DNA of 64,000 nt from Promethearchaeota archaeon Loki_b32 (lineage in GTDB: Archaea > Asgardarchaeota > Lokiarchaeia > Sigyniarchaeales > SOKP01). The notes beneath the pieces were generated by a model. It was not told where the DNA came from. It saw only the letters and a program-made list of their open reading frames with translations, and did not search any database. The position numbers and the translations under genes are program-made. The stretch lies in the NCBI GenBank assembly GCA_005223125.1, contig NJBH01000002.1, positions 62,001 to 126,000 on the forward strand. The letters are read 5' to 3'. Position 1 is the stretch's first letter. Each line of letters starts with the position of its first letter. Shown here one piece after another: positions 49,680 through 64,000 of the stretch.

Positions 49680-50051
49680 TTAATCAATTTCATAAACTTT
49701 TCCTGATTTGATTAACTTACATAAAAATGGGATATCATTATCCGGATTTCCTGTCATCTTACTTGAGATTGCTTTTAACTTTTTTCTCGGATGAAAATGG
49801 TGAGGCCGTGTGATAACATCCCATTTATCATCATAGTTATCATATCGACAACGATCTAATTCAAATTTCGAAAAAATAATGCTATAACTATATTCTCCAT
49901 AATTGTTATATCTAATAAATATTTGGACGTTATCCCTCAGTATAACATGAATTCTTGCTAGTTTGGGTTCAAAATTAATAGTTTTTAAGAGAATAGATAA
50001 GTGTTGATGAAGGAGTAATTTTGCTTTATCTAGTAGCTTTAAGCCTAGCAT
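49680..50051 (-). CDS. TumE-type toxin
   Basis: A 123-residue protein of TumE/DUF6516 type. The family core is seen as RCRYDNYDDKWDVITRPHHFHP (positions about 70-91), with RYDN and the HHxH cluster; these proteins are toxins in TumE-TumA pairs. The antitoxin gene lies upstream, 16 bp away. It ends 130 bp beyond ogt on the same strand. The assignment is by motif and pair structure. Confidence 0.75.
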   Translation of the reverse strand: MLGLKLLDKAKLLLHQHLSILLKTINFEPKLARIHVILRDNVQIFIRYNNYGEYSYSIIFSKFELDRCRYDNYDDKWDVITRPHHFHPRKKLKAISSKMTGNPDNDIPFLCKLIKSGKVYEID

Positions 50052-50067
50052 TAAAGATCATTTAAAT

Positions 50068-50310
50068 TTATTGATCATTCCATTCTTTTTTCAATAAAAA
50101 TAATTCTTCTCTTTGATCTAACAAATGTCTTAAAGTGATAGCATCGTCTTCTGCTTCCTCAATAGTTCCATCTTTTGCATCTTTAAGGAATTTAGAAGGC
50201 TCTTCATAATCCCATTTACTTAATATTTTATCAATTTCCTCATATAAGAACTTTAGTTTCAAATCTACTAACTCTTCTAATAATTCCTTTTCTACACGAA
50301 TACTAGTCAT
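50068..50310 (-). CDS. TumA-type antitoxin
   Basis: An 80-residue helical, acidic protein upstream of the TumE-like toxin. The N-terminal MTSIRVEKELLEELVDLK suggests a short DNA-binding strand-helix; the rest is Glu/Asp-rich (KDAKDGTIEEAEDDAITL). The partner position and size fit the antitoxin. Its start is the left boundary of the mobile debris. Confidence 0.65.
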   Translation of the reverse strand: MTSIRVEKELLEELVDLKLKFLYEEIDKILSKWDYEEPSKFLKDAKDGTIEEAEDDAITLRHLLDQREELFLLKKEWNDQ

Positions 50311-50649: not shown

Positions 50650-50789
50650 TTATTCCTCAATGATAAAATCAGGCTGATAAATCTCATCATCTTCACTATC
50701 ATCTGGATCTTTCATGAATTTTAATAGGGCTTCAACAATTTTGTCTGGTCTCTTACCCTTTCCTGCTAACGCTTCAACTTTTTTACGAT
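50650..50789 (-). pseudogene. C-terminal fragment of a lost gene
   Basis: The minus strand reads KKVEALAGKGKRPDKIVEAL, then LKFMKDPDDSEDDEIYQPDF, ending IIEE at 50650-50652. It has no start and breaks exactly where the recombinase fragment begins on the other strand. The acidic tail with a KGKRPDKIVE helix suggests a protein C-terminus. Family unknown. Confidence 0.4.
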
Positions 50790-50791
50790 TC

Positions 50792-51160
50792 TTTAATTAC
50801 ATCCCAAAAAGCTTGGTCAAGTTTTTAGAGATTTTTCTTGAAGAAAGAAAATTAAAGAATGTAAAGACTAAAGCTTTATTTCTTTTCACACATTTAAAAA
50901 GATACAATGAAAGAGTGTTTAACGTATATTTAAAGAAAGTATTGAATGATTTGATTATTGAAAAAAATATCACCTGTCACACATTTAGAAGAACTTTAAA
51001 TACACTTAGAAAAGTTATGGGATGCCCTAATGAAGACCGAAAAATACTATTGAACCATAAAGTTCAAGATGTGAATGTAGAATCCTATGTAAAGATGAAT
51101 TATAAACAATATATCGAACTATATGATAAATGGTATCCTTATTATGAAGTAGTTCTTTAA
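50792..51160 (+). pseudogene. Tyrosine recombinase C-terminal fragment
   Basis: Residues in frame from about 50792 match the catalytic end of a phage/XerC-like tyrosine recombinase: the HxxR box in CHTFRRTLNTL, the LLNHK box, and the final Tyr in VESYVKMNYKQY. The first catalytic Arg domain and the N-terminal half are missing, and the upstream frame has a foreign origin, so the fragment is probably inactive. It marks a past integration event at the edge of the defence-like region. Confidence 0.7.
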
Positions 51161-53765: not shown

Positions 53766-54899
53766 ATGAAAAAGATAGAGAACCTAATAAAGACAATTCA
53801 AAACCATATTGAACAAAAATCATTTAGTAAAGAAATAAGACAACAGATTTTAAAAGAATCCAATGATATCGTTGAAGAAATATATCAAAATTTATTCACA
53901 AAGAAAGAAATTCTATTAAATGATTTGAATTTTCTTAATCTTAACGAATATAAAATATTTGATTTAGATGGCAATTTTGTTAATGATTATTCCCGAGATT
54001 TTTATCATTTCAAATGTTTTTTAAACGCATTACTATATGATTACGAACTCAAAGTTTTTATTGAAAATTATAAAAATTCAAAATTAATCGATTCAACTCT
54101 TTTAAAATGTTATGAAGCAATAATAAGGTTATTTAACTGCTATTTTTATTTTTGGAGTTGCGAAAGACATTATGTACATAGAAGTGAAATCGAAAAAATA
54201 TTAACATTATTAGAAAATTATGAAGTTCTATTAATCAAAGAATTTGATGTTAAATTCACAGTTAATAAAAAAACAAGATATAATTTAGAAGATAAACCAG
54301 ATGAATATCTTATCAGTTTTGATGAACTTCAAATAGCTATTCATATGAGTGGTGATATTGCAGGTCATATATATACAGGATTATATGACCATACCCCTAT
54401 ATTTGAGTTTTTAAAGTCTATTAAAAAGGAATTAAATATAGGACTTACTCAATTTATTCAAGAGCTCTTTTGGAGACCATCAAAGGATAAAAGTGATACA
54501 TCATTGTTTTCAGAGTTAAGTCACTCTGATCTTCTTGATTTAATTGTTAGAAAGCTTCGAAATCTAAATTTAAAAAACATTCATAATTTTCGTGATGAGG
54601 CTAGTACTGACTTAATCTTAAATGAAAAAGGATATAAAATTGGAATTCAAGTAGAAGTAAATAATGATATTAAAGAAACCACAAAAAAACATACATTTAC
54701 TAAATCAATCAAATCTCAGATTCAAGACGCTCGAAGAATTCCTGGATTGGATAAATATATTATTCTTTTATGTATCGATTTAAATATAAAAAGTTATAAT
54801 ACCAAATTGCGAATAACCTTTTCCCAACTTGAACAGATGAATGATAATTTCTTTACATACATTACTCCTGAAAATTTAGTTGAATTTTTTTCTGATTAA
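53766..54899 (+). CDS. PD-(D/E)XK-like nuclease-domain protein
   Basis: A 377-residue protein. The helical N-terminal 200 residues are not recognised. The C-terminal domain has a nuclease-like core: ASTDLILNEKGYKIGIQVEV (D282, E297) followed by a helix with QIQDARRIPGLDKYIILLCI. D-x14-E with flanking strands fits a restriction-endonuclease-like fold, but the usual Lys is replaced by Val, so activity is uncertain. It is convergent with the long minus-strand operon, whose last stop is 46 bp away. Confidence 0.6.
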   Translation: MKKIENLIKTIQNHIEQKSFSKEIRQQILKESNDIVEEIYQNLFTKKEILLNDLNFLNLNEYKIFDLDGNFVNDYSRDFYHFKCFLNALLYDYELKVFIENYKNSKLIDSTLLKCYEAIIRLFNCYFYFWSCERHYVHRSEIEKILTLLENYEVLLIKEFDVKFTVNKKTRYNLEDKPDEYLISFDELQIAIHMSGDIAGHIYTGLYDHTPIFEFLKSIKKELNIGLTQFIQELFWRPSKDKSDTSLFSELSHSDLLDLIVRKLRNLNLKNIHNFRDEASTDLILNEKGYKIGIQVEVNNDIKETTKKHTFTKSIKSQIQDARRIPGLDKYIILLCIDLNIKSYNTKLRITFSQLEQMNDNFFTYITPENLVEFFSD

Positions 54900-54944: not shown

Positions 54945-55652
54945 TTAATAGCAATTTGAAAATATTAAATCCATCTGCATATCTATGTAATTTTCATTCT
55001 GATATTCACACGCACTACAAATTAAGTGAGTTATAGTACTTAAATAATTTATAATATCCTCTAATTCATCTGAATATTTTACTTGATTAAAACTAGAAAC
55101 ATTTAGAAGGAGTTCTTCATATTTGCTTTGTGAAAATGAAGACTTCTGTTTTAATAATTGATTATGGATTGCCATATATTTCATTAACTCCAAATTTTTA
55201 TCAGATGGCTTCAAAATAAATATTGATTCTATTTGCATCCAAATATGAAATGCTAGCTCTTCTAATATCGATGAAAATGCATATCTTTGCTGAACTGCTT
55301 TTAAAAAGAACTCTCGATATAATGGATAAAGATCATCAATTCTACTGACTTTAAAATTTACTATATTATTAATTAAATGGTCTAAAATCCCGAGGATGTT
55401 ATCGTCAATTCCCTCTATAACTGGAGGACTTGAAAGAATGAGGCAACCCGTTTTTTTAGTCAAATGAACATGACCTAACTCATGAATTATATCATAATCT
55501 TTACCTGATTCATTGAGAATTAAAATATACGTCTCTTGTGCCTGATCAAACTTAATACTAGTCTTAGAAGAAGACATAATCAGATTAATATTTACATTAT
55601 TTATGGATAATAAGTCTTTGTAATTATTTACTTTTTGAATCCATTTTTCCAT
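54945..55652 (-). CDS. HExxH metallopeptidase-like protein, last gene of the SMC operon
   Basis: A 235-residue soluble protein. IIHELGHVHLTKK gives a zinc HExxH site (H57, E58, H61), preceded by a strand (YILILNESG) as in IrrE/ImmA-like and other zincin domains. A third ligand may lie in the helices after 120 (EELAFHIWMQIES). It starts 10 bp after the upstream gene ends. It may cut a regulator or partner in response to DNA invasion; this is inference from context. Confidence 0.65.
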   Translation of the reverse strand: MEKWIQKVNNYKDLLSINNVNINLIMSSSKTSIKFDQAQETYILILNESGKDYDIIHELGHVHLTKKTGCLILSSPPVIEGIDDNILGILDHLINNIVNFKVSRIDDLYPLYREFFLKAVQQRYAFSSILEELAFHIWMQIESIFILKPSDKNLELMKYMAIHNQLLKQKSSFSQSKYEELLLNVSSFNQVKYSDELEDIINYLSTITHLICSACEYQNENYIDMQMDLIFSNCY

Positions 55653-55662
55653 AAATATAACC

Positions 55663-56586
55663 TCAAAGTTTATAAAAAATGATATTCTCTCCTTTAAATG
55701 CTATACCCAGACCAGAATTTAGATCTCGAATTCTATATTCTAAATTGTTTTTATCGAAAATAATCTGTTCAAGTTTAAATTTTAATGAATTTTGCACTAT
55801 CTTATATATTTTTTTTATTTTTGACTTAATAGCGGTTTCTCCTTTAATAATCTCTTTTTCTACCCGTTTTAGATTCTTAATTAAAATATTACAATAATTT
55901 TTATCTACTATATTATATTGCGTAATCACCATTCCACCTCCAGGACAAAAATAAGTAGTTCCATCATCCATAACGATGGGAGTATTTGTCCCCCCATTTC
56001 TCCATAATTCTCTATCACTGTCAGAGGTTTTTTCACATGAATTCATTCTAATTTTAAATCGTGCAATTAAACTTGGCCAATTTCTGTGAACAATATTTAT
56101 TATTTCCTTGTTTGTCCAATCTTTATGAGTTAAAATCTGTATAAAATAAAAATGATTCTCGTCGAACATTGCAAACAGTATTTCATTTTGACCCTTTGAA
56201 AGTCTTTTAAGACCTTTAAATCCTCCAAGATGTAAATGATATGTTCCCCATTCATTAAGTGTCACATCTGGAAAATCTAATTTCTTTAATTTTCTACTTA
56301 AAAAAGGAGTAAGGTCTTCTCCTTTTATAATTCTATTCTCTAAGTCTTTAAGATTATTTTCAAGTCCTTTTGGACAATTAAATTCTTTTGATTTTAAAAT
56401 AGTTCTAGGTTTAGACTCAATTAAACTCCGATTTAAGTTCATATAAAGAAGGCATAGTTCATCAACATTATCCAAGTTCTTAATTTTCTGCTCATATTTC
56501 ATTTCCTTAAGTCGTTTGCTATTTTCTCTTATCATAGCTTTTAAAATTTCTTTAAAATCCTTAAGTAAATTAATTTCTATCATCAT
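55663..56586 (-). CDS. Unknown protein of the SMC-Toprim-GHKL operon
   Basis: Not recognised. 307 residues, soluble. The middle has TLNEWGTYHLHLGGFKGLKR (about 121-140) and a conserved-looking IVHRNWPSLIARFKIRMN. A second block NTPIVMDDGTTYFCPGGGM suggests a beta-rich pocket with a Gly loop; the HLHLG stretch could bind metal. It lies between the GHKL gene (23 bp) and the metallopeptidase gene (10 bp) in one operon, so it probably takes part in the same process. Confidence 0.55.
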   Translation of the reverse strand: MMIEINLLKDFKEILKAMIRENSKRLKEMKYEQKIKNLDNVDELCLLYMNLNRSLIESKPRTILKSKEFNCPKGLENNLKDLENRIIKGEDLTPFLSRKLKKLDFPDVTLNEWGTYHLHLGGFKGLKRLSKGQNEILFAMFDENHFYFIQILTHKDWTNKEIINIVHRNWPSLIARFKIRMNSCEKTSDSDRELWRNGGTNTPIVMDDGTTYFCPGGGMVITQYNIVDKNYCNILIKNLKRVEKEIIKGETAIKSKIKKIYKIVQNSLKFKLEQIIFDKNNLEYRIRDLNSGLGIAFKGENIIFYKL

Positions 56587-56609
56587 TAAATCATTGCATT
56601 AAAAAATTT

Positions 56610-58028
56610 TTATAACTTTTCTAATTTCAAGCATTTCGAAGCCATGATCCCAATTAAACGAGTCAATTCTAATTCAAATCCTCTTGAAATATCTTCACAT
56701 CTACTGAGACAATGTCCTGTCTCATGAATTAAGGTCCCAAAATAATGCTCTAATTTTCGTAAAGTACTTCTTTTTATAATTATTGTTCCAGTAGATTCTT
56801 CCCAAAGTCCATCAACTTCTCTGAATGTATAAGGATCTTTTCTCATTGTCTCGGAAATCTTTATTTTTCTTACTCTTCTTGGTTTTCCACCAATAAGCTC
56901 GAAAATTTTATCTGTTAAATTATAGATTTTCTTTTCTGATTCATTTAACTCTTCATGATCTATGAACTTAAATTCAAAACTTTCATGATCTTCAATGATA
57001 AATTGATCGATATCTCTGATAACATTACCTGAAATATCTTTTAAATCATGAATTTTTTCTCTTAAGCTATCTGGGATTGTAACTATATTCATTCCTCTAG
57101 ATTTGGCATCATCTATCAGATGAAAAGAATTTTGGATTTCAGAAGAAGTAACAAAAATTGCATTTAATTTTGAGCTAAGAATGCTTACTGCATGCTTTTG
57201 AACATCAATCCAACTTAATTCGTCATGATTTGTCCCTTGCTCAATCTTTTGTAAGTCTTCCATTAGCATTTTTGCAATATTTTCACCCTTGCAAGATAAT
57301 AGTATTTTCATAATTCTATCCCGGTATGCATTTCTCCCTACATTAGTTCTCTCTCTGTTTAATGCTTTTCTTATTTGTTTTGTTAAAGATGTAATGTTAT
57401 AACTAAATAGAAAGTATTCCTCTTCTGCCACTTTAACTCCATTTATATAGATAAATGCTTTTTCTTTAGTATTTTTATAGACATCTCCATAATCCGTTGA
57501 TTCAACTAATTTTTCCCCTGAAAACCTTAAAAATAATGCTTTTGCATTTTCTATACTCTCCACAGTAATATCTCCTAATAGAACATCGGTACCGATTAAA
57601 TCTGGGTCTGATGGGTGCAAGATCACTGCATGTAAGGTGTCTATATCTTCGAATCCATGCTTTTCGGATGTTTCTATCGTGATATCTCCAAATTTTGATT
57701 TGAGTAAAACATATACGCCATTTCTATCAAAAGTTGCTAATGCGTCTTTTAGACCTATTCCAAATTTTCCAATTAAATTTGGGTTCTCTAATTTCTCTTG
57801 ATTTTCATTCTGAGTTAAGTGATCATATTTGAGACCTCTACCGAAATCTCTTATATGCCAAAACCCATCTTCATCTTGAAAGACTTGTATATCTTCTGTC
57901 CCTGTAATCTTCTGTTCATCTATTGCATTAGCGATGACTTCCCTGATACCATGATGAACTTCCCAATCCTCTAAAATCTTTTCTATATTTAAATCAAAAC
58001 TTCTTTTGTCTTTCATAATTCCTTTCAA
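56610..58028 (-). CDS. GHKL ATPase with C-terminal HExxH motif
   Basis: A 472-residue protein. The N-terminal GHKL (Hsp90/MutL-type) ATPase shows the N box REVIANAIDEQ (E30, N34), G1 DFGRGL (61-66) and G2 IGKFGIGLKDA (86-96). After a transducer-like segment and linker, the C-terminus carries TLIHETGHCLSRC (H435, E436, H439), a zincin motif, with a following Glu (FELELT, about 452) as possible third ligand. Coupling ATP-driven dimerisation to a protease-like site is unusual. Its start overlaps the TPR gene stop by 4 bp (ATGA). No SMC arm is fused, unlike MORC proteins. Confidence 0.75.
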   Translation of the reverse strand: MKGIMKDKRSFDLNIEKILEDWEVHHGIREVIANAIDEQKITGTEDIQVFQDEDGFWHIRDFGRGLKYDHLTQNENQEKLENPNLIGKFGIGLKDALATFDRNGVYVLLKSKFGDITIETSEKHGFEDIDTLHAVILHPSDPDLIGTDVLLGDITVESIENAKALFLRFSGEKLVESTDYGDVYKNTKEKAFIYINGVKVAEEEYFLFSYNITSLTKQIRKALNRERTNVGRNAYRDRIMKILLSCKGENIAKMLMEDLQKIEQGTNHDELSWIDVQKHAVSILSSKLNAIFVTSSEIQNSFHLIDDAKSRGMNIVTIPDSLREKIHDLKDISGNVIRDIDQFIIEDHESFEFKFIDHEELNESEKKIYNLTDKIFELIGGKPRRVRKIKISETMRKDPYTFREVDGLWEESTGTIIIKRSTLRKLEHYFGTLIHETGHCLSRCEDISRGFELELTRLIGIMASKCLKLEKL

Positions 58029-59464
58029 CCTTCTTTTTCCATTTCTTCTAAATGCTTTTTAATTTCTTCATCCCCTGGACTTAATTCATTTGCTTTTAAA
58101 TAAGCTTTTTTAGCTTTTTCTAGATCTCCATTGTATTCATAAGCAATCCCTAAATTATCCCATATCATTGCATCATCTGAATCTGTCTCTAAAGCTTTCC
58201 TATAATGATCAATTGCATTCTGATATTCATCTATACAAATATAAGCTAAGGCAATATTAACTAAAGCATCAATATCATCTGGAACCTGATCTAAGATATT
58301 TTTATAGATCTTAATAGACTCTTCAAAATTTTTTGTTTCATAGTACGATTCGGCTAGACTGTGAGCATCTTCAATTGTAAATCCATTAGGAGCATATCTT
58401 GCTCCTATTTGATATACACGAATCTCAGTTATTCCGTCCTTAATTTTTGTATAAAATGAGATGGTATCGATTTTTATAATTCGATGATTATAACCAATTA
58501 TCTCGGTCGGGACTCCTTCTGGAGATAGTTTTTCCATATTATATATTGGTTGAGAATCAATATAATGAAAAGTTATATCTTTTCTTGTATCATCCATCGA
58601 AATTCTAAAATTAACATCAAATTTCGTAATTTCATAATCAGAATAATTTAGAAATCCTTGGGGGCTCTGTGTTAGGAGATTTCCAATTAAGTCAGGAGTT
58701 AATTCAGGTAAAGTTTCTCCCTCATCAATTTTAACTTCCCTTCTATAAATAATAGATTTTGTAGGGGGGCGTTTTTCCCTCTCTACTTTAAAATTTTGAG
58801 TATAACTCTCATACTCATCAATATCGGTTTGTTGAGCATTAATTTTATCGTCTAACTCTAAGCTATAGAGTTCCTCAGAAAAACGAGATCTTGCTTCATC
58901 AATCCAATCTTCGTCTGATATTTCTTCTAAATGGAATAGATTAGCCTGTATTTCTCTCAAGATATAAGATTTAATAGCAACGTGAAAATCTGAATATTGA
59001 TCACTATTTCTTAATTCTAAAAAATATTTATATTTCTGCTGACCATTTAAGTTGTCCAGCTTTGGGGATAATTTTACACTAAACGACTTAACGATATCAT
59101 CAAACCAAGATTCGAATTTACTTACTCTATAAATCTTGAGTTCAATTTGATCTTTAGCTTTAGAGAAAAAAGAAGCAATATCCATTCTATGGATGTTTTT
59201 TGATATTTTGAACTCCTTTATTTTATTTGCTTCATTTATAATTGGTGTCTTATATTTAAAACTGAGTGTGAAATCCTTGCGAGTGTTTTTTAGAATCCCC
59301 CGGAAATTTAATGGAAAATTTTTCACTTCATATTTCATAGAAGTAGGCATTGAGTTAATCCCTCCTATAAGACCTCGTTCTTTCAGATATTCAATTATAT
59401 CCTCTATTGTTAATCTAGAAATCTCTTTTACTAACTCTTTATATAATAATTTTTTTACTGTCAA
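58025..59464 (-). CDS. TPR protein with duplicated N-terminal domain
   Basis: 479 residues. Two related blocks lie at about 45-118 (YEVKNFPLNFRG, NTRKDFTLSFKYKTPI, MDIASFFSKAKDQIELKIYR) and about 273-356 (YEITKFDVNFRI, DTRKDITFHYIDSQPI, IDTISFYTKIKDGITEIRVY), an internal duplication of a beta-rich domain. Three TPRs finish the protein (about 362-475, for example AIDHYRKALETDSDDAMIWD). It is probably a scaffold bringing the SMC-nuclease core and the GHKL protein together. It starts 9 bp after the Toprim gene and overlaps the GHKL gene. Confidence 0.7.
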   Translation of the reverse strand: MTVKKLLYKELVKEISRLTIEDIIEYLKERGLIGGINSMPTSMKYEVKNFPLNFRGILKNTRKDFTLSFKYKTPIINEANKIKEFKISKNIHRMDIASFFSKAKDQIELKIYRVSKFESWFDDIVKSFSVKLSPKLDNLNGQQKYKYFLELRNSDQYSDFHVAIKSYILREIQANLFHLEEISDEDWIDEARSRFSEELYSLELDDKINAQQTDIDEYESYTQNFKVEREKRPPTKSIIYRREVKIDEGETLPELTPDLIGNLLTQSPQGFLNYSDYEITKFDVNFRISMDDTRKDITFHYIDSQPIYNMEKLSPEGVPTEIIGYNHRIIKIDTISFYTKIKDGITEIRVYQIGARYAPNGFTIEDAHSLAESYYETKNFEESIKIYKNILDQVPDDIDALVNIALAYICIDEYQNAIDHYRKALETDSDDAMIWDNLGIAYEYNGDLEKAKKAYLKANELSPGDEEIKKHLEEMEKEG

Positions 59465-59473
59465 AATCTCACC

Positions 59474-60958
59474 TCATTTTCTTTTTTCTAAATTAAAATT
59501 ATATTCTAATATCTCATTATACCATTCTAATAAAAATTCTTGCTCAACTCTTCCATTGATTAGAATAAATTGAGCAAAATTATTTAATTCAGAAATCTCT
59601 GATTTAATAAATGCTTGTAAAGAATCGATTTGTCCAAGGGGTATCTCTCGATATGGAATGTGAAATTTTAATGGAATTCTTATTATTTTTATATTTTCAA
59701 ACCCTAATCTAGTGTAAATTTCTCTAAATATATTGCATCCTCCTAGGTCATAATCTAACCATACAAAATATTTAATTTCTGGATTATTTCTAATAATTTT
59801 TTTAAGAATTGACTTCCTAAAATGTCCAGAAATTCCCATTCCTTTAATAAAAATAAGTAATGCGTTATTCTCAGTAGCCCAATTATCTAATACCAGTTGA
59901 GCAAACACCGCGAGATTTTCGATAAGCAAAACTATATCTGCATTCAGCTCAATAGAATTAATATTACTATAAGATAAATTAGAAAATGAAACTGATGGTC
60001 CAGCAATCTTAATAGATTTTCCATTCTGCATTTTTAAAATTAATTCTCCAGAAAATGTAAATGAATCTAATGCCAGTATAAGACCAATATCTTCACAATT
60101 CTTACTCGAAAAGTTCTTTATAATGGAATTAATGTCATTTGAGTATTTATCAAGGACTTTAGAAGGATCTTCATTGAATGAGAGTTCTGATTCCTGAAAT
60201 GCTCTTGCTGATACTTCTCGTAATGTTAAATTGTCTCGATAAATTTGTAACCATGTACACAATCCGTATAAAATAATTAGAAATTTTGGAGGATTGGTTG
60301 CTGAGTTCTGAGGTTTAATTGAGGTTCCGTTATTCTTTATCCATTCAGGATTTCCTTCCTTTAATAATTCTAATTGAACATTTAATAAAGAAAAAATGAT
60401 TTTCTTGTTTGCCTCTAAATCATCTTTATTAAAGATATCTAATGTATTATTAATTTTTTCAATTCCAAGAGCTATTTGCTCTTCTACATTTAAGAATCCA
60501 GTTAATTCTTTCAGCTCTTGTTTTCCATCATCTGTTAAAGAATAATATATTTTTTCATTATTAGATGTTTGAATAACATCAATTCTTTTGAGGATTAACC
60601 CTTTTTGAATAAATCCTTCTGAGATTTCATCAAGATCTTGATTCTTATAATAATTCTTTAATTTCTTTTTCCAAATATTTTCATTGATTTTATCATCCCA
60701 TAGTACTGAGATAATTGATCTGAAGAACGCTAATTCATTTTCTTCGAAATTATAATTTTCAATTGGAATTGTGCAAGTAATTAGTTTTTTTTCTTTTCTA
60801 CGTTTTCCCCAAGTCATTTTATGTAGTGGACATTCTTTAATTTCGAAACTATGAATTACCTGATAAGGCCCCTCAGTTATTTCATATACTTTATTAACCC
60901 ATTCAAATGAATCTGAGGGACATTCGCAAGGTTTTTTCTTAATGCTCTCGGATGGCAT
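59474..60958 (-). CDS. JetD-like Toprim nuclease subunit of a Wadjet-like system
   Basis: 494 residues. The C-terminal Toprim domain has the conserved Glu in LLIENLAVF (E347) and the DxD in FVWLDYDLGG (D402, D404), with a C-terminal GRVEQEFLLEW stretch. The region before it (about 255-290, RDNLTLREVSARAFQESE) matches the JetD-type helical domain. The N-terminus has Cys/His clusters and winged-helix-like segments (residues 75-165). In Wadjet, JetD cleaves DNA loops extruded by the SMC complex. The gene overlaps the SMC gene by 20 bp, so the two are made together. Confidence 0.8.
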   Translation of the reverse strand: MPSESIKKKPCECPSDSFEWVNKVYEITEGPYQVIHSFEIKECPLHKMTWGKRRKEKKLITCTIPIENYNFEENELAFFRSIISVLWDDKINENIWKKKLKNYYKNQDLDEISEGFIQKGLILKRIDVIQTSNNEKIYYSLTDDGKQELKELTGFLNVEEQIALGIEKINNTLDIFNKDDLEANKKIIFSLLNVQLELLKEGNPEWIKNNGTSIKPQNSATNPPKFLIILYGLCTWLQIYRDNLTLREVSARAFQESELSFNEDPSKVLDKYSNDINSIIKNFSSKNCEDIGLILALDSFTFSGELILKMQNGKSIKIAGPSVSFSNLSYSNINSIELNADIVLLIENLAVFAQLVLDNWATENNALLIFIKGMGISGHFRKSILKKIIRNNPEIKYFVWLDYDLGGCNIFREIYTRLGFENIKIIRIPLKFHIPYREIPLGQIDSLQAFIKSEISELNNFAQFILINGRVEQEFLLEWYNEILEYNFNLEKRK

Positions 60959-63830
60959 CAGTTAAATCTCTTACTCGTTTTATTTCTTTATCAAAATTAA
61001 TTAATGTAATCTGAGATTCTTTATTTTGATTTTTCCAAATTTGAATAATATGGGGAAATATTCTTATATAACCGGGTGTAGGGGTATATGGAGATATGCA
61101 AATTAATTTTTTATTAGGTAAATGTTGCTCGATGACCCTTGCTAGAAGTTCCTTATGGTCATCAGCTATATTTTGATCAAACTCGTCCCATACCGAAAAT
61201 GGTGAAGGAGATTCGGCTAATATTGCGATCTCAAATGCTATAGAAGCTCTAAGTCTTTCACCTTTACTAAAATTCGCATATTCGATAGCATCTAATGACC
61301 CATCAATTGTATTTGAGACATTTATATTTAATTGATAATCTCCCTCAATTTCTGTTGGATTGAACTTTAATTCTCCATCTAAATTAAGCCCTCTCATTAC
61401 TGATCTGTAACGACGACTTACTATATCTTGCCATTTAATAAGCTTGTCTTTTAAATTATCAACAGCAATTAAAAATGTATTTTGGCATTCATTTTTTTCA
61501 TATTCATATTGTTGATTTAATTCTTCCAAAGTTTGAATATCTTTTTTAGAAACTTCATAAATTTTGACAATTGAGGAATCTATATCTTGATACTGATCAA
61601 GGGCTGATCTCGTCTCAATAATTCTTTTTTCTAATGCTTCTAATGTTTCAGAAGGTTTCTTGATTTTGTGTAAAATTGTCTTAGCTTCATTGGTTATCGC
61701 ACGATACTGAAAATTTTCATCAATAATATAGTTATCAACTATTGAAACTGTTTCTTGGTTATCCTCAATATTTTCCAAGAGAGTCCAATTCTCTACTAAA
61801 TTATTAAACGTATTTGCGGTGTTCGTTAAATCTTTTATTAATATAGTTAGTTTATTTATATTTTCATTAATAGAATTTTTTTTTTCTTCCCTAGTTTTTT
61901 TAAATCTTTCATTATCCTCTTTCAGACGCTCTATATTTTGTCTAGGAAATGAGAGTATAGAAATTAACTCATTTAATCTATTAGATAAATCTCCTTTTTT
62001 TTCTATAATTTCATCAATATCTTTCTCTTCTTCTCTCAATGCGAGATATTCTAATTTTTTATTTATTGTTTCTAGATTTTGCTGTCTTTCTGAAATTTCA
62101 GATTTAAAATCTCCCATTTGCTTCTTCAAATTTTCTATAAGCATAAATAATCGATTTTTTTCTTTCTCAGGTGCGCCTTCTCCTATCATGTAGGGGGTAT
62201 TGATAAAATGGAATTTTCTTTGAGAATAAATATTATAGGTGTACCCATCTTGGCAATAAATTCTAGAATAAGGGGCATCTTCTAAAAATAATTCCTTTTC
62301 TTCAAAAGTATTCGCGAAATAAAAATTATGCATCATTAAATTCATTAAATCTTCAATTGTTTCTGAAGGAAGTGATTGGGGGCACACTTCTAACAAGTCT
62401 GACCAATCTCGTAATCCTTTTTTTCCCTTTAATACATAATTTTTTCGAGGACTTAAAATAATTGCATCTGATTTTAAATCTCTATTGATTTTTTCAGCAA
62501 TCCTGCCGTGTTTTTCATCAACAACTATACCTGTTTTATATGAAGCTAAAATATTTTCAATATATTCTTGCCATCTTTCAGTTCCTTGTTTAAAATCCAA
62601 AGTCTCATATAATAATTCAGAGTTGATATCTCTTTGTTTTAAGGCATTTTGAACCTTGAAGATATCAGAAGGAATATCAAATTTCTTTTGTTCTAATTCT
62701 TTTAATTTTTTATTATACTCGCGATATTCTCTTTGGATAATTACCAAGTTTGCCTTTATTTCATCTAACTTTTGTTCTTTTTGCTCTTTTTCTTCTTGAA
62801 TGAATAATTGATCAGATATCTCTGAAAGTTCTATATTAAGATTTTGTAAATATGAGATAACAACTTCGTATTTATCTTTATAATTTCTTATCTCATATTC
62901 CATATCATAGACTTCTTGTTGTACTTTATCCTTCTCTTCTTTTTGGGATTGGAATTTTTCTTCTATATTAGTGATTTTAGTTTTATTGTTTTTTATCTCA
63001 TTTCTTAATCTTTCAATATCTTCCTTTAACTTTTCATTCTCTTCATAAATACTTATAAAATCTTTTTGGTTATCATCAAAACTATTAAATGTAAAATGGA
63101 TTTTTGCTTTAAGTTCCTTTATTTGAAGTTCTGCCAAATACCTCTCAAACTCAACCTTTTTTTGATATCTTTTGTAAGTTGCTTCAATATTTTGGAATTT
63201 TATATAAAACTCCCTTAATTTATCATTTGCTTCATCTAATTTCTTGTCAGCCTCATCAAGCTCATTTCTTGTTATTTTAACCTTTTCTTTATAATCTTCG
63301 ATTCCAATAAATTTTGAAACTGCATTATATCGTTCTTTCGGCGATTTTTGAGTCCATATTGCGGTCTGTTGATCATCAATAAAAATAAGAGGGTCTTTCC
63401 ATTCTCCGAAATTTTTTAACTCTTCTTTAGTAATTTTTTTTTCCTCTCCTTTAATTCTTATATAACGTCTATTCCTCTTTTTCTTACCTTTAAAGGCCTC
63501 AAGACCTATAGTTATTTCTTCGTCAATTGGATAGATATTTAGGGCATCTGGGCCTGTATTTAATACAGCTAATTCAATTTTAGCATGATTCTTATAGACT
63601 TTACTTTTAGTACCCCCTTCTTCAATTTCCTCATAAGTAAAAAATTCATTATCTCGTTCAATTTTTCTTCCTAAAACATACTGTACTGCATTAAGGATGT
63701 GTGACTTACCTGAACCGCTACTTCCAGTAACATAGCAACGATCACTGAGATCTCCGAAGGAAATAATCGTATTTTTATGACTTCCAAAATTTTGTAAAAA
63801 TAATTGTTTTAGTATAGGATAACTACCCAT
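60939..63830 (-). CDS. JetC-like SMC ATPase of a Wadjet-like system
   Basis: 963-residue SMC/MukB-like ATPase. Walker A GSSGSGKS at 36-43; coiled coils at about 170-380 and 560-800; a hinge-like globular part at about 390-540 (QRDINSELLYETLDFK, GIVVDEKHGRIAEKI) without a zinc hook; the ABC signature FSKGERLR at 854-861; Walker B in SVWDEFD (D882, E883). It is shorter than most MukB/JetC. Two such subunits with a kleisin would extrude DNA loops. It overlaps the upstream partial gene by 8 bp. Confidence 0.82.
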   Translation of the reverse strand: MGSYPILKQLFLQNFGSHKNTIISFGDLSDRCYVTGSSGSGKSHILNAVQYVLGRKIERDNEFFTYEEIEEGGTKSKVYKNHAKIELAVLNTGPDALNIYPIDEEITIGLEAFKGKKKRNRRYIRIKGEEKKITKEELKNFGEWKDPLIFIDDQQTAIWTQKSPKERYNAVSKFIGIEDYKEKVKITRNELDEADKKLDEANDKLREFYIKFQNIEATYKRYQKKVEFERYLAELQIKELKAKIHFTFNSFDDNQKDFISIYEENEKLKEDIERLRNEIKNNKTKITNIEEKFQSQKEEKDKVQQEVYDMEYEIRNYKDKYEVVISYLQNLNIELSEISDQLFIQEEKEQKEQKLDEIKANLVIIQREYREYNKKLKELEQKKFDIPSDIFKVQNALKQRDINSELLYETLDFKQGTERWQEYIENILASYKTGIVVDEKHGRIAEKINRDLKSDAIILSPRKNYVLKGKKGLRDWSDLLEVCPQSLPSETIEDLMNLMMHNFYFANTFEEKELFLEDAPYSRIYCQDGYTYNIYSQRKFHFINTPYMIGEGAPEKEKNRLFMLIENLKKQMGDFKSEISERQQNLETINKKLEYLALREEEKDIDEIIEKKGDLSNRLNELISILSFPRQNIERLKEDNERFKKTREEKKNSINENINKLTILIKDLTNTANTFNNLVENWTLLENIEDNQETVSIVDNYIIDENFQYRAITNEAKTILHKIKKPSETLEALEKRIIETRSALDQYQDIDSSIVKIYEVSKKDIQTLEELNQQYEYEKNECQNTFLIAVDNLKDKLIKWQDIVSRRYRSVMRGLNLDGELKFNPTEIEGDYQLNINVSNTIDGSLDAIEYANFSKGERLRASIAFEIAILAESPSPFSVWDEFDQNIADDHKELLARVIEQHLPNKKLICISPYTPTPGYIRIFPHIIQIWKNQNKESQITLINFDKEIKRVRDLTDAIREH

Positions 63831-64000
63831 TATTAGGTTCCTCCTCTTTCTTTTGTTGAATTACATCCATCACACTTAATTGTCTAGTGGTTGGTTTAAG
63901 TATTTTCCTCAATTCTAAATAATCTTTAGGCAAATAGGGTTCTAAATTAATATCAGTATATTCTTCATCTATTTCTCTTAATATACGTTTAAGCATTTCT
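63823..64000 (-). CDS. Partial gene upstream of the SMC gene (jetB-position)
   Basis: Only the last 58 codons are in the window: KRILREIDEEYTDINLEPYL, then PKDYLELRKILKPTTRQLSV and a polar tail ending EEEPNNG, with stop TAG at 63823-63825 overlapping the SMC start. In jetABCD order this place belongs to JetB, the MukE-like subunit; the visible part is too short to prove it. The rest of the operon lies beyond the right edge. Confidence 0.55.
   Translation of the reverse strand, partial: EMLKRILREIDEEYTDINLEPYLPKDYLELRKILKPTTRQLSVMDVIQQKKEEEPNNG

Follow-up and report, generated by a model that had tools for sequence, protein, structure and literature searches.

Gene content of the run

We describe here a run of 14 genes on one strand of Promethearchaeota archaeon Loki_b32 (genome G000), in which a Wadjet-like Jet core lies behind a NurA-HerA-Mre11-Rad50 end-processing set and a short Argonaute pair. 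The run lies at the right-hand end of a window of 64,000 nucleotides, the whole stretch of DNA that was analysed (G000:C21:62001-126000, on a contig of 235,949 bp), and continues beyond it. A preliminary description made from the window had listed seven minus-strand genes there, whose overlaps or gaps do not exceed 23 bp and all of which are present, and had assigned the DNA to an Asgard archaeon, in line with which a Rab-like GTPase of the window gave 32-47 matches in four relatives, 9-25 in three Thor-/Lokiarchaeota genomes and none in three other archaea. The recurring partners of the Jet genes (NurA-HerA-Mre11-Rad50 and Argonaute) lie right of the window, outside the view on which that description was based. 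We class the core as a variant of Wadjet whose JetA is unproven, and the run in full as a new form, in which such a Wadjet is set into a cassette for end processing. Coordinates below are those of the window or, where so prefixed, of locus L004 (L004 position + 59999 = window position), and gene starts are the first ATG, GTG or TTG assigned by the tool.

54945-55652, minus: 235-amino-acid (aa) HExxH (HELGH) protein, a possible zinc peptidase and the last gene of the run; Peptidase_M78 at 0.025, below cut-off
55663-56586, minus: PD-T4-7-like protein, 307 aa (PADLOC PD-T4-7)
56610-58028, minus: GHKL ATPase with C-terminal HExxH (HETGH), 472 aa (conserved family motifs)
58025-59464, minus: TPR protein whose N-terminal domain is present twice (domain comparison); this domain is called the 'TPR-linked domain' below
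59474-60958, minus: JetD-like Toprim nuclease, 494 aa (Pfam JetD_C, PADLOC JetD1)
60939-63830, minus: JetC-like SMC ATPase, 963 aa (Pfam SMC_N, PADLOC JetC1)
63823-64000, minus: JetB-like tandem winged-helix protein, 223 aa, with its 5' end outside the window; whole gene L004:3824-4495 (predicted fold)
L004:4495-5859, minus: JetA candidate (position, mutual similarity)
L004:5912-8599, minus: Rad50 (Pfam AAA_23, zinc hook)
L004:8580-9701, minus: Mre11 (Pfam Metallophos)
L004:9708-11354, minus: HerA (Pfam DUF87/HerA)
L004:11338-12600, minus: NurA (Pfam NurA)
L004:12793-14271, minus: short pAgo (PADLOC pAgo_I)
L004:14287-15708, minus: REase-type Argonaute partner (PADLOC Aga_REase_Archaea)

Read from its upstream end, the run is ordered Argonaute partner, pAgo, NurA, HerA, Mre11, Rad50, JetA, JetB, JetC, JetD, TPR protein, GHKL protein, 307-aa protein and 235-aa protein, the first and last of these marking its limits. 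Six of its 13 junctions overlap, and the largest gaps are 192 bp (Argonaute-NurA) and 52 bp (Rad50-JetA).

Jet core in five Asgard genomes and end-processing set in four of them

The SMC and JetD-like proteins both score above their Pfam cut-offs (SMC_N 4.8e-12; JetD_C 24.5 bits, cut-off 22), PADLOC matches the latter to JetD1 at 4e-16, and its Toprim residues E347, D402 and D404 are invariant in all four Toprim-type homologues, which bears out the Wadjet-like SMC-Toprim operon first proposed. A profile of the four JetD homologues also aligns with the Toprim part of topoisomerase VI-A (6e-4). PADLOC ranks mad3 (2.2e-16) above JetC1 (2.1e-12) for the SMC protein; in the Protein Data Bank (PDB) it matches SMC heads at 1.9e-25, its nearest relative by sequence being canonical Smc.

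Extending the contig to the right, which had been suggested as a check for JetB and JetA, revealed a protein that is JetB-like by fold, together with a JetA that is a candidate in the right place only. Structure prediction and Foldseek likewise went halfway, giving an ScpB-like JetB and a poor model for JetA. The AlphaFold2 (AF2) model of the JetB-like protein (predicted local distance difference test, pLDDT, 75) contains two winged-helix units, and all six Foldseek rows at E ≤ 0.001 were ScpB chains (6juv best at 1e-4; 3w6j, 4i98), with a chain of Smc5/6 at 4.8e-3 and one of MukE-MukF at 0.019 lower in the list; VIA-align rows for the same model were generic winged helices. We read the predicted structure as that of a KITE-type SMC partner, at the level of fold class only. 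In PADLOC the JetB proteins of the five loci described below gave no JetB match except JetB3 at 0.05 for G062, and matches of the window JetB to LmuA (0.0033) and of the G070 JetB to CARF-type models (5e-4, 0.0066) were taken as winged-helix noise. The N-terminal winged helix of JetA resembles the Wadjet-II JetABC chain 9qe0_E (Z 9.1, root-mean-square deviation 3.3, 94 aligned) and the MukBEF chain 9gm7_C (Z 8.4, deviation 4.7, 90 aligned), in a match list also full of unrelated winged helices, some of them ranking above these chains. Full-length JetA reached an E. coli JetABC chain at E 2.4 only, which was not counted as evidence, and PDB profile searches with JetA, JetB and the GHKL protein gave 0.12 at best. 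JetA is a candidate by its place in the operon and by mutual similarity, and its identity is unproven.

In order to establish how widely this core is distributed, we searched 227 Asgard-phylum genomes, where the JetD and JetB queries match the same five (G000, G017, G054, G062 and G070). Known Wadjet systems have the operon order A-B-C-D, and that order is found at all five loci, with JetA placed by position and mutual similarity. G000 JetD and JetB found no relative in plasmids, and the Jet profiles none in viral contigs. The JetD profile matched 0 of 392 genomes in a sample of a first other archaeal phylum and 1 of 398 in a sample of a second, each searched without a positive control in the phylum; near the single match (L150/L172) the JetA, JetB and JetC profiles find nothing, and on that account we took it for a topoisomerase VI A subunit. 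JetD-profile matches in 3 of 17 genomes with GHKL-bearing loci were weak and confined to the Toprim part.

The upstream genes of G000 are readily recognized by Pfam as NurA (1.8e-11), HerA (DUF87/HerA, 4.3e-36), Mre11 (Metallophos, 6.7e-14) and Rad50 (AAA_23, 2.3e-24; zinc hook, 1e-9), and HerA-Mre11-Rad50 genes precede JetA at four of the five Jet loci (G000, G062, G017 and G070). In both G000 and G062 the genes NurA-HerA-Mre11-Rad50-JetA-B-C-D follow one another on one strand, with SbcC as the Rad50 member in G062. At the head of the G000 run, PADLOC identifies both members of the Argonaute pair (pAgo_I, 1.6e-115; Aga_REase_Archaea, 6.6e-25), the Pfam Piwi score of 28.8 bits falling 0.1 under the cut-off of 28.9; both proteins of a short pAgo with its REase-type partner are thus present, placed here at the head of an end-processing/Wadjet run. 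Beyond the G062 NurA lie, as in G000, an Argonaute-like stretch, here broken (PADLOC 3.4e-4 for one of its two open reading frames, ORFs, and no match for the other), and a divergent ATPase-like gene; G062 also contains masked stretches.

In G017 and G070 a much diverged HerA-, Mre11- and Rad50-like set stands upstream of JetA, separated from it by one extra small gene. Pfam recognizes HerA and Mre11 in each of the two genomes but Rad50 only in G070 (AAA_23 above cut-off), the G017 Rad50-like protein lying under the cut-off for SMC_N. Profile comparison of these sets with the others gave 85% for HerA, 96% for Mre11 and 90% for Rad50 over 93-178 aligned columns, against 2.4% at most for 12 mismatched control pairs. 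The extra genes encode proteins of 238 and 249 aa (L014:15869-16585 and L016:2584-3333) that share 39% identity and match no Pfam family above cut-off; by eye they could possibly be sensors with a winged helix, which is a guess. HerA, Mre11, Rad50, NurA, GHKL and TPR-linked domain matches are all absent across the whole 31-kb contig of G054, with profiles that do detect distant HerA/Mre11/Rad50 sets in other genomes.

Between G000 and G017 the Jet proteins are 62-72% identical and HerA/Mre11/Rad50 just 21-23%, whilst between G017 and G070 HerA, Mre11 and Rad50 share 41, 31 and 27% and the Jet proteins only 17-27%. The nearest relatives of the G000 HerA, Mre11 and Rad50 (66, 60 and 47%) are those of the congener G015, where BREX occupies the place of Jet, the order on one strand being Argonaute, a 1388-aa protein unmatched in PADLOC, NurA, HerA, Mre11, Rad50, BrxA, BrxB, BrxC and PglX (L145:3-19899). 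Judged by these identities, the modules have been exchanged with the HerA-Mre11-Rad50/Jet pairing kept. Furthermore, of 19 members of the genus just two, counting G000 itself, have a close relative of the G000 Mre11, whilst 11 have matches of 29-38% and six none; the G000 set is therefore not the genus-conserved one. G000 has a second NurA apart from any match to the other proteins of the linked set. G017 carries a separate NurA, HerA, Mre11 and Rad50-like set on another contig (C68), and in that genome the Jet-linked set is additional.

At one of the five loci the core itself is altered. In G054 (L015:12631-14364) the N-terminal half of JetD, aligned to about residue 295, leads into a sequence that NCBIfam recognizes as a Ser/Thr protein kinase (PknB-type, 1.1e-37), with the kinase motifs AMK, HRD, DFG and APE. 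No ATG, GTG or TTG is found at the conserved start, and a CTG eight bases after GGAGGT is the probable start codon. This genome is 79% complete, and its locus is the sole one with the Toprim half replaced as well as the one without HerA/Mre11/Rad50 matches. A kinase in the place of Toprim makes signalling outputs on this SMC core possible.

The features shared with Wadjet (JetABCD, also MksBEFG or EptABCD) are the SMC ATPase, a KITE-like tandem winged-helix partner, a Toprim nuclease with acidic residues and the order A-B-C-D. The run differs in that its JetA and JetB go unrecognized by PADLOC, in its SMC protein, which is nearest to canonical Smc and scores higher with mad3 than with the JetC models, in its position behind NurA-HerA-Mre11-Rad50, and in having a relative with a kinase for Toprim. 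With the archaeal NurA-HerA-Mre11-Rad50 cluster it shares the same four genes and the Rad50 zinc hook; unlike that cluster, the set here is not genus-conserved and is linked to Jet or BREX, plus Argonaute.

Downstream accessory genes and setting

The preliminary description had inferred that the four genes after JetD expand Wadjet, perhaps by a second response step; a response step specific to Wadjet is not supported. Its account of two of the proteins holds: the GHKL ATPase does carry an HExxH, the GHKL-type motifs and HExxH being conserved in its family, and the TPR protein does contain two copies of one domain. Their associations point elsewhere, the GHKL family being tied to SbcC/Rad50 and the TPR-linked domain to HerA-Mre11-Rad50 sets that lack Jet.

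The window GHKL-HExxH protein stays below the cut-offs of all Pfam and NCBIfam families. Searches of 97 of the 227 Asgard-phylum genomes found a homologue at the G062 Jet locus (51%) and no GHKL match in the other three Jet genomes; a match of 44 aa with one stop, in G090, was set aside. We analysed 93 further loci (L024-L116), comprising nine plasmid records, the best 80 of 167 species-genome relatives and four viral contigs, with many relatives on short contigs and two weak members among the plasmid loci (L031, 25% identity; L032, 18% coverage). HExxH is retained in 88 of the 94 family ORFs, fragments included. None of the 93 loci has, within the stretch of DNA taken for it, a JetA, JetB or JetD match with profiles of this subtype, which, being built from five Asgard loci, could miss ordinary Wadjet types; on this count we rejected the gene as Wadjet-specific. 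A weak JetC-profile match at L105 (6.9e-4) is an SbcC-like ORF. The commonest neighbour clusters within 4 kb are instead SbcD/Mre11-like (10 loci) and SbcC/Rad50-like (nine loci). Among long ORFs, taken stop to stop, 6 of 59 within 150 bp of the gene are SbcC-like versus 4 of 567 farther away (Fisher 8.6e-5; 5.5e-4 with one near-copy removed), the four far cases being counted as misses, in a comparison made after the pattern had been seen and with a profile from the same neighbour cluster. SbcC-adjacent members fall into three separate subclades of the GHKL tree, each also with members lacking an adjacent SbcC, and a single old association followed by losses is a conceivable history; the tree did not resolve the placement of G000 and G062.

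Other settings of the family include a position after DprA in Euzebya and, on the Salinibacter ruber plasmid pSR56 (L029:8441-15213), one inside a type I restriction locus, flanked by hsdS and hsdR, where a SprT-type metalloprotease gene lies directly 3' of hsdR. The family is widespread and occurs in several types of restriction locus, and its window member reaches no Pfam or NCBIfam cut-off, all of which makes it a promising candidate for an accessory enzyme in common use. The protein is probably an ATP-switched zinc peptidase; its task, be it the clearing of protein from DNA ends or that of a second effector, is a guess. MORC and paraMORC proteins are likewise GHKL ATPases of DNA-restriction operons (PMC2292703), a likeness judged here from the GHKL-type motifs and HExxH only, and differ from this family, which ends in a conserved HExxH; a word search of the main text of that paper returned no peptidase, protease or SbcC.

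With a threshold of E ≤ 0.01, 11 of the 227 genomes of the Asgard phylum contain a match to the TPR-linked domain, and five of the seven proteins with E < 1e-10 accompany HerA/Rad50-type genes. The domain occurs with Jet in G000 and G062, and right after Jet-free HerA-Mre11-Rad50 genes in G059 and G032. At a locus of G007 (contig C64, L168:9052-18001), HerA and a 1201-aa Rad50-like ORF are followed by proteins of 325 and 845 aa and an ORF with the domain, possibly another HerA-SMC-type system. The proteins away from HerA/Rad50-type genes are those of G016 and of G007 contig C71; the former (L167:7372-9076) stands right after a 298-aa protein that we take, from a motif, to be a CD-NTase-type nucleotidyltransferase. 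No relative of the TPR protein was found in plasmids, nor of the domain in viral contigs. TPR-linked and GHKL-HExxH genes follow JetD in both G000 and G062, in swapped order, and as both types associate with Rad50/HerA, Jet appears inserted between Rad50 and its accessories. A probable role for the TPR-linked protein is that of adaptor to the Rad50/HerA machine.

The last two genes are probably add-ons. The 307-residue protein, for which no family had been proposed, matches PADLOC PD-T4-7 (2.8e-33, residues 6-260), placed here in a long operon; genes of this kind turned up in 2 of the 227 Asgard-phylum genomes, and the four remaining Jet genomes are not among them. The 235-aa HExxH protein has no plasmid relative and, among the compared loci, matched its own DNA only. 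The recurrence of these two genes with the Jet core that a genome survey had been expected to reveal was accordingly not seen.

The surroundings had been called defence-like. A TumE-type toxin gene, barely above the Pfam cut-off, stands beside an 80-aa ORF (49680-50310, minus), likely a toxin-antitoxin pair, near an integrase fragment (50714-51160) that scores under the Pfam cut-off. A 377-aa protein (53766-54899, plus), convergent with the end of the run, looks PD-(D/E)XK-like by eye in its C-terminal part; its label of nuclease, and that of a HEPN protein, are unconfirmed, as no family matched either at a meaningful score in the family search.

A composite reading and its rivals

The JetABC part of Wadjet is believed to extrude DNA, and JetD cleaves DNA circles (PMC10586767), whilst HerA-NurA resects ends together with Mre11-Rad50 (PMC2288612). 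We consider it somewhat probable that these genes form a composite operon for the destruction of DNA, in which a divergent Wadjet sits within a HerA-NurA-Mre11-Rad50 end-processing cassette. This reading builds on gene content and order, the conserved catalytic residues, the fold class of JetB, the recurrent pairing and the module swapping; the biochemical steps, and the joint action of the modules, are what we infer from sequence. JetABC would extrude DNA and recognize small circles, the Toprim site of JetD would cut the captured circle, Mre11-Rad50 would take the new ends, and HerA-NurA would resect and degrade the linear product, so that it could not be rejoined. The short Argonaute pair could use the processed DNA or act as a separate second line. 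The simplest reading of a pairing that stays constant despite swapping is that the second machine handles ends made by the first.

Several observations weigh against this reading. Only five Jet loci are found, in one archaeal phylum, and G054, G062 and G070 are 66-89% complete. No family model recognizes JetA, PADLOC matching it at none of the five loci, and its AF2 model is poor (pLDDT 46), with nothing usable beyond the N-terminal winged helix. For JetB, the Foldseek TM-scores are low (0.24-0.45 of the query over the first 12 rows), and next in the list after the ScpB chains comes an RNA polymerase III complex chain at 1.6e-3. The proteins in the NurA position in G017 and G070 lack NurA support (no Pfam NurA; hhalign 0.4%). 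A second Mre11 was not found in G000 at 1e-8, so that ordinary repair may there be a further task of the linked set. The SbcC enrichment carries the limits given with it, and genes in defence islands crowd together without joint action.

The strongest rival builds on that last point: independent systems would have accumulated on one strand, sharing a promoter at most. Such accretion would suit the PD-T4-7-like and 235-aa genes, which are not seen at other Jet loci, the varied settings of GHKL-HExxH (Salinibacter hsdS/hsdR, Euzebya DprA) and the ability of BREX to occupy Jet's place. It fits poorly with the identical eight-gene order in two families (G000 and G062), with the overlap of 6 of 13 junctions, and with close Jets that keep an upstream HerA-Mre11-Rad50 even when that set is very different; we regard it as rather unlikely. 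The expanded Wadjet of the preliminary description, in which the GHKL/metalloprotease proteins would, once DNA is captured, add a further response by proteolysis or signalling, is a little less likely still. The TPR-linked and GHKL-HExxH genes after JetD in two families, the family-wide conservation of HExxH and the kinase of the G054 JetD speak in its favour, as against the 0 of 93 other GHKL-HExxH loci with JetA, JetB or JetD matches, the three of five Jet genomes without a GHKL match and the Jet-free occurrence of both accessory types with Rad50/HerA-type genes. A chromosome-repair machine without a defence role, whose SMC-KITE-Toprim part makes or senses breaks for HerA-NurA-Mre11-Rad50, is improbable. 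In its favour, these four genes form the resection set of archaea and are linked in most of the hyperthermophilic ones (PMC2288612), topoisomerase VI-A is a relative of the JetD Toprim, and no second G000 Mre11 appeared at 1e-8. Against it stands a pattern as of defence genes: JetB and JetD occur patchily (5 of 227 genomes), as does a close Mre11 (2 of 19 members of the genus, counting G000), G017 has an extra repair-type set, modules are swapped, and Argonaute and BREX are neighbours.

None of the open-access papers searched contains HerA, NurA and Wadjet together, and the word 'wadjet' has no occurrence in the main texts of an Asgard defence survey (PMC11291487) and an archaeal immunity survey (PMC12988326). 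Nor is the fate of Wadjet-cut DNA addressed in the available text of PMC10586767. Under the composite reading, an SMC-Toprim cutter linked to archaeal resection machinery would provide a direct answer on the fate of the cut DNA, joining defence to recombination biology, and if the kinase-for-Toprim fusion of G054 works as suggested, it would be a Wadjet with a signalling output.

RecBCD feeds bacterial Argonautes, a likeness for the supply of guides. More tentatively, the Asgard loci may represent a 'capture, cut and chew' platform, in which a swappable HerA-NurA-Mre11-Rad50 cassette would be wired in cis to DNA-capturing systems of different kinds (BREX, or a divergent Wadjet) and frequently accompanied by Argonaute, by an adaptor of the TPR-linked type and by a GHKL-zincin gated by ATP, in which the Toprim output would be exchangeable for a kinase, and from which Argonaute may draw its guides out of degraded plasmid DNA.

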